DNA from: a virus | IMG/VR virus record: IMGVR_UViG_3300037558_003026 | Span: 1-23,415 of that record | Length of the DNA: 23,415 nt | Strand: one strand, 5' to 3' | Part shown: positions 12,925-15,097 of the stretch, in pieces | How positions within the stretch are numbered: the first letter of the stretch is position 1 | Layout of the letters: each line of letters opens with the position of its first letter | Notes under the pieces: generated by a model | Seen by the model: only the letters and a program-made list of their open reading frames with translations | Database searches by the model: none | Told to the model about the DNA's origin: nothing | Program-made: the position numbers and the translations under genes

Positions 12925-13344
12925 TCAGGCCAGCGGGTCGGCCGTGGAATAGTGCAGCACGACCGGGATCACGGCGGCCTTAAGGCTCGCCGCGCCCTCG
13001 ACCGGCAGATCGACCGGGCGCGGCGCTTCCGCCTCGACCCAGTCGCAGAGCCCGCCCAGCGTGCGGTCGGCGGCGAGTGCCGCGCCGATGCTGGCGGTCA
13101 GCGCGTCGAAGGCGGCGTCTCGGGTTGCGCCCTGCACGACCGCCTCGATCTCGGCGCGGTGCTGGTAGTGGTAGCGCAGGGGTGACAGCGTGACCTCCGG
13201 CTCCCCTGGTTCGCCATCGCGCAGGATCAGCAGCCCCCCGGCCGGCACGCGCTCGGGCAGCACCTCCCCGCGCAGGGCGGTGGCGGCCAGCGCCGAGAGC
13301 CGCGCATGCAGCGCGGCGAGGATGGTTTCGCGTGGGGTGGGCAT
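12925..13344 (-). CDS. Tail terminator protein (gpU-like)
   Basis: This 139-residue protein sits exactly where lambda gpU lies, between the gpZ-like protein and the tail tube. It begins MPTPRETILAALHARLSALA and contains a beta-rich core (LLILRDGEPGEPEVTLSPLR, YHYQHRAEIEAVVQ) followed by a helical stretch and a hydrophobic end (AAVIPVVLHYSTADPLA), consistent with the tail terminator fold. I choose the ATG at 13344. An in-frame TTG at 13353 is possible and an ATG at 13349 is out of frame. The ribosome site is weak (GAAAG, nine bases upstream) and lies in sequence shared with the promoter region of the plus-strand cassette, as if the cassette had replaced the original leader. Confidence 0.83.
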   Translation of the reverse strand: MPTPRETILAALHARLSALAATALRGEVLPERVPAGGLLILRDGEPGEPEVTLSPLRYHYQHRAEIEAVVQGATRDAAFDALTASIGAALAADRTLGGLCDWVEAEAPRPVDLPVEGAASLKAAVIPVVLHYSTADPLA

Positions 13345-13355
13345 TCCATACAACT

Positions 13356-13427
13356 TTCACACGTGTCTGCACCTTGTTGACAGCGTCACCTGGTCAGCCT
13401 ATCTTCACAAGTGTCTGCACCTTGTGA
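13356..13427. promoter_or_regulatory. Operator-like repeats controlling the plus-strand cassette
   Basis: Two 22-base direct repeats differ at one base: 13356-13377 and 13404-13425, sharing GTGTCTGCACCTTGT, with starts 48 bases apart. The second is also part of a perfect palindrome, TCACAAG at 13405-13411 and CTTGTGA at 13421-13427, separated by nine bases. The first contains the 8-base palindrome ACACGTGT. The first ends on the -35 box and the second covers the end of the -10 box and the start site, ideal for repression. The likely ligand is the ribbon-helix-helix protein encoded just downstream, which is inference. Confidence 0.75.
13377..13405 (+). promoter_or_regulatory. Sigma70-type promoter for the plus-strand cassette
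   Basis: A perfect -35 box TTGACA (13377-13382) is followed by a 17-base spacer and TATCTT (13400-13405), four of six matches to TATAAT. Transcription would start near 13412, about 25 bases before the ATG at 13437, and the leader has GAGG seven bases before that ATG. It is the clearest vegetative promoter in the window and points against the late operon. Confidence 0.78.
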
Positions 13428-13436
13428 GGGAAAGCA

Positions 13437-13985
13437 ATGGCTACCGAAAACACGACACGCGTTTCATTTCGTCTGAAGACCGACGTATTTTACCTGGTTC
13501 AGAAGCTGTCGGCCGATGCCGGTCTGGATCCGTCAGCTTTCATGCAGCGCGCTCTCGAACGTGCTGTGTACGAGCATCTTCCGCCGGAAAGGCAAAAGGA
13601 GCTCGACAACATGGAAACGCTTTACAACGCCGCGCAGCGCAAAGCGCGTGAGGTATTCGACGCCGGGCGCTTCGATGAACACTTCACGCTAACGGTTTTC
13701 CGCGAGCTCATGTCCGACGCAAAGACACGCCATCTGTACGAGCAAGTCATTGAGGCTGACGCATATACCGACGGCGCGACAAAGAAGACCCCGCTCAATA
13801 TGTATCTCGGCTGGTACATCAAGAACGCGATCAGTGCCCAGCCGTTGCTGGACGACGCGGGGAAGCCACGGCGCGGGTTCGTCAAGGGTGAGCCAATCAA
13901 GAGCTACACGTTGCTTCAGAGTTCGGCGGCTCGCACCCCCTGTTCTCGCAAACACGCAGGAGGTTTGAGCGATGAGCGATCATAA
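13437..13985 (+). CDS. Ribbon-helix-helix DNA-binding protein, first gene of moron cassette
   Basis: This 182-residue protein has an N-terminal region (about 7-48) that looks like a ribbon-helix-helix domain: a beta strand TTRVSFRLK, a first helix TDVFYLVQKLSADAG, a turn LDPS and a second helix AFMQRALERAVYEHL. Such domains bind operators as dimers and often repress their own promoter, which fits the repeats just upstream. The remaining 130 residues are charged and helical (ETLYNAAQRKAREVFDAGRF, then FTLTVFRELMSDAKTRHLYE) with a distinctive TPLNMYLGWYIKNAISAQPL segment. I recognise no family in that part. The gene overlaps the next by 14 bases. Its base composition is far below that of its neighbours (33/60 G+C in a counted line against 44/60 nearby), a sign of separate origin. 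An antitoxin-type regulator is one possibility; none is proven. Confidence 0.85.
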   Translation: MATENTTRVSFRLKTDVFYLVQKLSADAGLDPSAFMQRALERAVYEHLPPERQKELDNMETLYNAAQRKAREVFDAGRFDEHFTLTVFRELMSDAKTRHLYEQVIEADAYTDGATKKTPLNMYLGWYIKNAISAQPLLDDAGKPRRGFVKGEPIKSYTLLQSSAARTPCSRKHAGGLSDERS

Positions 13986-14451
13986 AAAAATTCTTGCATC
14001 GATCGGAGCTTCGACAGACGCCGATCAGCTGCGACGCTTTCGGGAGAACGCTCAGAAGAAGGGAGTCACCGTTGTCGCAGATGCGGCATTCAGACGCTTG
14101 ATCGAGATCCTCCCCGAACAGGCACCGGGTAGCATTGAACATGATTTCTGGATGACGATTCACGCCTTCGAGGAGGTCCTTCGGGATGAGCGCGGAAAAA
14201 CCGTTCGCCTGTCCAGAACTCGGCAGAAGATTGGCCGAGTGGGGGTCAAGCAGACGCTGATAGACTTTGCCACGAGCAAAGCTCCCACGGATGGCTTCAA
14301 CATGTTGATCGAACGAGGTCTCCCCGAACTGACAGGTGAGGCTCTCGTCCTGAAACACAGCGGAGCTTTTGATTTAGGAGTGCAAAACGCTGCCAAGCAG
14401 CGGTTGGAGGATGCGGGCGTAGACATCACCAAGCTCCAATCGAGCTGGTAG
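13972..14451 (+). CDS. Unknown protein, second gene of moron cassette
   Basis: This 159-residue soluble protein of unknown family begins MSDHKKILASIGASTDADQL. It has helical N-terminal segments and a middle IEHDFWMTIHAFEEVLRDER. A basic stretch KTVRLSRTRQKIGRVGVKQT is followed by FNMLIERGLPELTGEALVLK and LEDAGVDITKL at the end. There is no signal peptide or membrane segment. A strong Shine-Dalgarno AGGAGG lies eight bases before the ATG at 13972, inside the end of the preceding gene, and the frames overlap by 14 bases, so the two are co-expressed. G+C is low (29/60 and 30/60 in two counted lines). By place and pairing it could be the effector of a two-gene system (superinfection exclusion, defence or toxin), but nothing in the sequence names the activity. 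The stop is 16 bases from the convergent stop of the gpZ-like gene, with no terminator between. Confidence 0.85.
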   Translation: MSDHKKILASIGASTDADQLRRFRENAQKKGVTVVADAAFRRLIEILPEQAPGSIEHDFWMTIHAFEEVLRDERGKTVRLSRTRQKIGRVGVKQTLIDFATSKAPTDGFNMLIERGLPELTGEALVLKHSGAFDLGVQNAAKQRLEDAGVDITKLQSSW

Positions 14452-14467
14452 TGATTTTCCGGTTCGT

Positions 14468-15097
14468 TCAGATCCTTCCCTCCACCCAGTTCGCCACGAT
14501 CAGCCCCGGCACCCTGTCCAATGCCCGGTCTGCATCTCGTGCCAGGTCCAGCCGCTTCGGCAGCTTGACCTGCGGCACCAGCAGGAAGATCGGCGCGGTG
14601 ACCTTGCCGCGCCCGGTCTTCGAGCGCGACAACACCGCCTGGCCCTTCGTGTTCAGCCTGCTCTCCGCCACCAGCAGGCTGGGGCCCGTGCGGCGATAGA
14701 CGAAGCGCAGGCGGAGGCCGCGTCGCCGCTCCCATTCACCGGGCGTGATCCGGCCGCCGCGCAGGGACTTGCCTGCGGCGGGCAGCGGGATCGCGAGCCA
14801 GAACCCGTTCTTCGATCGGATCAGCGGGCCGGTGTCATGCGCGCCGACGATGACCGGGGCCTTGGACCAGACCAGCGCTGCCGCATCGAGGCTTTCGCCC
14901 GATCTCGGGAAGTTCTGGCTTCGGATCGAGTTGGCCAGCCGTGTGCCGAGCCCCGCGCCAGTGATCTGCAACCGCCAGGCCGACTTCAGCCCGGTCCCGG
15001 CCTCGCGCATGGCGGCCGTCACGGCGCGTTCACCGGCCGCGACCTCGGCCGCCATCATCGCGACGATGTCGGGATCGATGTCGAGCTTCAGTTTCAC
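14468..15097 (-). CDS. DUF6441-type neck/minor tail protein (gpZ-like)
   Basis: This 209-residue protein occupies the gpZ position between the gpFII-like connector and the tail terminator. It begins with MKLKLDIDPDIVAMMAAEVA, then has a helical part (GERAVTAAMREAGTGLKSAW) and an RLANSIRSQNFPRS segment. The second half is basic and beta-rich, ending VPGLIVANWVEGRI. This pattern is what I recall for DUF6441, found in alphaproteobacterial phages and thought to serve the neck or tail completion; family membership is not certain by eye. The start is GTG at 15097, with GAGG five bases upstream, and overlaps the previous stop by four bases. Its stop faces the end of the plus-strand cassette. Confidence 0.8.
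   Translation of the reverse strand: MKLKLDIDPDIVAMMAAEVAAGERAVTAAMREAGTGLKSAWRLQITGAGLGTRLANSIRSQNFPRSGESLDAAALVWSKAPVIVGAHDTGPLIRSKNGFWLAIPLPAAGKSLRGGRITPGEWERRRGLRLRFVYRRTGPSLLVAESRLNTKGQAVLSRSKTGRGKVTAPIFLLVPQVKLPKRLDLARDADRALDRVPGLIVANWVEGRI

Follow-up and report, generated by a model that had tools for sequence, protein, structure and literature searches.

Comparative analysis of a phage cargo operon indicates that its first gene, ORF1, very probably encodes a ribbon-helix-helix (RHH) repressor of its own two-gene operon. The window, i.e., the whole 23.4-kb virus record that was analyzed, has its siphovirus-like structural genes (assigned partly from gene order) on the minus strand. ORF1 and ORF2 are oriented against these genes and lie between the DUF6441 and tail-terminator genes. 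The features are as follows.

12925-13344, minus strand: tail terminator gene, left flank of the cargo slot (PHROG 4204, E 9e-45)
13356-13377, plus strand: putative operator 1, TTCACACGTGTCTGCACCTTGT, a pseudo-palindrome CACANG-N9-CNTGT, the last T of which is the first base of the -35 box
13377-13382, plus strand: -35 box TTGACA
13400-13405, plus strand: -10 box TATCTT, separated from the -35 box by a 17-bp spacer
13404-13427, plus strand: putative operator 2, composed of the repeat TTCACAAGTGTCTGCACCTTGT (13404-13425) plus a perfect palindrome (13405-13427)
13437-13985, plus strand: ORF1, predicted RHH autorepressor with a conserved C-terminal domain
13455-13565, plus strand: predicted RHH domain of ORF1, residues 7-43 (AlphaFold2 pLDDT about 90; β-α-α; Foldseek matches to CopG, Arc, AtaR, and NikA)
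13584-13928, plus strand: C-terminal domain of ORF1, residues 50-164, helical with a β-hairpin, no family match
13972-14451, plus strand: ORF2, conserved helical protein, second gene of the operon
14468-15097, minus strand: DUF6441 gene, right flank of the cargo slot (Pfam PF20039, E 2e-47; PHROG 6367)

The earlier note had described two 22-base direct repeats (21 of 22 identical) flanking a TTGACA-17-TATCTT promoter. Both descriptions were confirmed: the repeats differ by one base, start 48 bp apart, and flank the promoter boxes at the positions given above. This promoter (10 of 12 matches) is the only sigma-70-like one found by scanning positions 13250-14600, and a simple consensus scan of the same interval revealed no terminator-like site. 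In the whole window, sites of the TTCACACGTGTCTGCACCTTGT/TTCACAAGTGTCTGCACCTTGT type occur twice. The second repeat starts on the last two bases of TATCTT, and operator 2 runs from the end of the -10 box across the likely start site into the beginning of the ribosome site GAGG (13426-13429), which precedes the ORF1 start codon at 13437. The palindrome that had been noticed here, TCACAAG-N9-CTTGTGA at 13405-13427, is indeed a perfect one (7+9+7), but the first repeat has the dyad as well, in the form ACANG-N9-CNTGT common to both.

We aligned the promoter with those of close relatives, the proteins of which are 69-95% identical to ORF1 (18 sequences including the window, 17 of them distinct over this stretch). 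The alignment is free of gaps from operator 1 through operator 2. All 18 promoters have retained both operators, TTGAC, the 17-bp length of the spacer, and the 48-bp distance between the repeats. Among the 17 distinct promoters, 14 of 20 columns are invariant in the operator 1 core (13358-13377) and 13 of 20 in the operator 2 core (13406-13425), as compared with none of 17 in the promoter spacer and one of 13 in the bases upstream. Averaged over columns, the major base reaches frequencies of 0.91 and 0.92 for the two operators, 0.65 for the upstream bases, and 0.55 for the spacer. Thus, the spacer keeps its length and not its sequence, as expected for a promoter. The ACANG-N9-CNTGT dyad is conserved in both operators (at 94-100% of sites, the N position excepted), and the -10 box of relatives strays from the consensus (TAGTTT, TAAGTT). 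In near-identical relatives, 17 of 18 positions match in the best 18-bp repeat window, whereas 20 shuffles gave no more than 14/18; the repeat pair at the ORF1 promoter is not a product of chance. One ORF1 copy (L025, from position 2014) has a stop after 30 codons, and its operators are intact.

The operon occupies a hypervariable cargo slot (window 13345-14467; also seen in L056-L133). The slot is filled in all of the about 70 close relatives that have both flanks, with inserts of 376 to 2621 bp and no empty example. In Rhodobacter phage RcDormio, where the DUF6441 gene product is a minor tail protein, nothing occupies the slot, and the flanking genes share a 4-bp overlap. Clustering of the 89 frames predicted in the slot of the close relatives, some of them probably spurious, gave 69 groups of proteins. 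Their matches include the domains HEPN, NYN, PLD, NERD, RES, Schlafen-AlbA, and ParE, and also cation, chromate, and sulfate transporters, indicating that the slot is a general cargo site and does not serve defence alone. ORF1 and ORF2 have their own promoter opposite to the late genes, and at this one site they are replaced in relatives or absent. They are best explained as a two-gene cargo (moron) operon. A limited literature search yielded no earlier description of the slot, and no paper on DUF6441 was found.

The putative operators go with ORF1 and not with the slot. The repeat pair was found only in slot records carrying ORF1/ORF2; at other cargo promoters of the same phage slot, the best repeat window reaches 11-13/18, which is the shuffle level. 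The genome-wide search for the shared core that the earlier note had proposed was conducted with the pattern CACANGTGTNYGCACCNTGT (up to two mismatches) in three cargo-holding genomes of 5.3, 4.2, and 3.9 Mb (13.4 Mb in total). Each of the three contained exactly two sites, all at the ORF1 promoter, and a control pattern gave none. The idea of a wider regulon was dropped, as this search returned no additional sites. Judged by these distributions, the operators look like a dedicated control circuit.

Next to the operators stands a gene with a suitable predicted fold. The AlphaFold2 model of the ORF1 monomer (pLDDT 83) has an unpaired N-terminal strand followed by helices 15-28 and 32-43, as in RHH monomers. 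In Foldseek searches with this model, DNA-bound CopG ranks first (TM 0.78, normalized by target), followed by Arc (TM 0.69), with AtaR and NikA lower in the list. The E-values for the RHH unit are about 1, which is poor because the unit comprises only about 45 residues. VIA-align returned PutA, AtaR, CopG, Arc, and AmrZ at Z about 3. Pfam matches were weak and confined to relatives of ORF1 (best E 0.02 for a NikA-like model and 0.03 for RHH_1, the latter in four relatives), the window protein itself having none. Since sequence matches are weak and Foldseek E-values are about 1, the fold assignment is based on topology and on the agreement of many RHH entries. The N-terminus of ORF1 is accordingly described here as a predicted RHH β-α-α unit of the CopG/Arc kind.

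Beyond this unit, ORF1 showed no family match in the libraries searched. Its C-terminal domain carries the motif PLNMYLGW..KNAI..PL..D..GKP.R..VK..PI.SYTLL and gave, within the whole-ORF1 model, weak helical fold matches only (Z up to 5.2). The window copy has an extra C in a C-run at about 13936-13940, which puts the last ~14 ORF1 codons in a different frame from that of relatives (182 versus 176 residues). The shifted end falls in a predicted disordered tail, and the shift may be either a natural frameshift or a sequencing error.

Remote homologues served as independent replicates. About 1180 genomes were searched with profiles, and some 30 chromosomal homologues of ORF1 were retrieved. An AACATAC-N7-GTATGT-like site joined directly to the -35 box (TTGAC) is present at 19 of 23 Rhodobacteraceae loci; the remaining four have no clear site. 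Second sites were scored with leave-one-out matrices against a threshold set at the maximum of 100 shuffles, and 15 exceeded it: ten at +38 bp and five at +36, +39, +40, +43, and +49. Locus L145 has a marginal second site at 24 bp, and L149, L153, and L160 have a single clear site. Within these loci, the junction of site and -35 box occurs 20 times upstream of an ORF1 homologue and once elsewhere. The Rhodoblastus homologue is preceded by TGACAT-CGT-ATGTCA twice, 45 bp apart, around TTGACA. In these remote loci, one palindrome abuts the -35 box and the next lies over the -10 box, usually 38 bp apart. As read from the DNA, there is one layout with at least three operator sequences across the ORF1 lineages. 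No other observation argues as strongly for binding by the ORF1 family itself as the recurrence of the same layout with lineage-specific operators.

This bears on the question of whether a host or phage regulator, such as a lysogeny repressor, could bind the sites, with ORF1 merely lying downstream. Many cargo genes are under outside control, and the evidence on the binder is indirect. However, the sites differ from one ORF1 lineage to the next and are present at ORF1 homologues of chromosomes and phages alike, while they are missing from the rest of the three genomes and from other cargoes in the slot. We therefore consider an outside regulator highly improbable.

ORF1 and ORF2 could also form a type II toxin-antitoxin system, in which an RHH antitoxin (ORF1) and a toxin (ORF2) would repress as a complex. 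The gene order (shared by about 20 contigs), the overlapping frames in the window, the RHH-type promoter autoregulation, and the mobile context would all fit. So would the precedent of E. coli RelB/RelE, which autorepresses through RHH dimers on paired pseudo-palindromes (PMC2812701). In that system, dimers and half-sites must be adjacent (PMC2812701), whereas the two sites at ORF1 are 48 bp apart. Each of the two genes has solitary relatives, which makes an obligate pair unlikely: the Rhodoblastus genome contains ORF1 and no ORF2, Rhodobacteraceae homologues of ORF1 are mostly single, and Rhizobiales homologues of ORF2 are solitary. Obligate pairing was rejected on this ground. No toxin or antitoxin model was matched above threshold, and ORF1 and ORF2 are large by the standards of toxin-antitoxin proteins. 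Altogether, a toxin-antitoxin function appears unlikely. Searches for an ORF2 family or fold in Pfam, PHROGs, NCBIfam, PADLOC, PDB sequences, and the Foldseek PDB and viral sets gave no match. A second viral scan with the alignment added no contigs. Three of the Rhizobiales ORF2 homologues adjoin dnaK (L176, L177, and L178), the one in L177 lying between dnaK and a J-domain gene.

Autorepression by the downstream RHH protein, as suggested in the earlier note, is thus well supported by comparison: the sites track ORF1, the predicted fold is that of CopG/Arc, and remote homologues have palindromes of their own. The operators also overlap the promoter of the gene with which they co-occur. In the proposed mechanism, RHH dimers would occupy two pseudo-palindromes of 19-21 bp, one sharing its last base with the start of the -35 box and the other reaching from the end of the -10 box across the start site. 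Filling of either or both sites would exclude RNA polymerase, and the ORF1 level would in this way set the expression of ORF1 and ORF2. We infer that ORF1 binds the operators as two dimers per site and that the outcome is repression, not activation.

The further suggestion that the geometry favors cooperative binding between the repeats found no support. The 48-bp spacing corresponds to 4.6 helical turns (10.5 bp per turn), the spacings of 45 and 38 bp to 4.3 and 3.6 turns, and the range in other lineages is 36-49 bp. Because the paired sites do not lie on one face and their spacing varies, contact between the operators is not implied. Cooperativity, if there is any, more probably acts within each 19-21-bp pseudo-palindrome, where two dimers would be the likelier unit.

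Could ORF1 activate from operator 1 and repress from operator 2? Activators do bind at positions such as that of operator 1, which ends on the -35 box, and the off-consensus -10 boxes of relatives (TAGTTT, TAAGTT) would be compatible with activation. But a TTGACA-17 promoter in principle requires no activator, and the -35 box itself is overlapped by operator 1, so that we regard dual control as very unlikely and repression from both sites as the preferred reading. Both operators lie inside the late operon of the opposite strand, and the tail-terminator start codon follows the nearer one at a distance of about 12 bp. ORF1 on these sites might conceivably form a roadblock to late transcription, coupling cargo repression to tail gene expression. 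We give this little credence; if it were true, a cargo protein would restrain its own phage.

RHH autorepression is textbook knowledge, and the mode of regulation described here is an ordinary one. Less ordinary are the protein family and the cargo slot. Like CopG, Arc, and related RHH repressors of the MetJ/Arc superfamily, ORF1 has a predicted N-terminal β-α-α unit, and pseudo-palindromic sites cover its operon's promoter. It differs from CopG and Arc by about 115 additional conserved residues without a family match and by two separate operators that bracket the -35 and -10 boxes. This RHH family with a conserved C-terminal domain, common to alphaproteobacterial chromosomes and phages, is apparently undescribed. 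Its operators can be read from the sequence in each lineage, and the family provides a natural set for asking how operator and RHH strand change together. Also new is a prophage structural-gene cargo slot that collects defence-like and transport genes. It resembles the cargo hotspots of P2-like phages and P4-like satellites in being a fixed place for very different accessory genes, some defence-like, but it is located inside a structural gene cluster and in phages of alphaproteobacteria.

The Rhodobacteraceae homologues of ORF1 are mostly alone and divergent from metY (the O-acetylhomoserine sulfhydrylase gene, recognized by sequence), as in L054, L140, L143-L147, L152, L157, and L160. This neighborhood pointed to a possible MetJ-like role in metY control; an operator copy next to metY itself was not noticed. 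A published survey assigned metY in these orders to the SAM riboswitch (PMC4239095), and none was detected in the seven chromosomal loci scanned. Near the chromosomal homologue in L147, a Guanidine-II riboswitch match just above threshold was found at L147:3339-3381.
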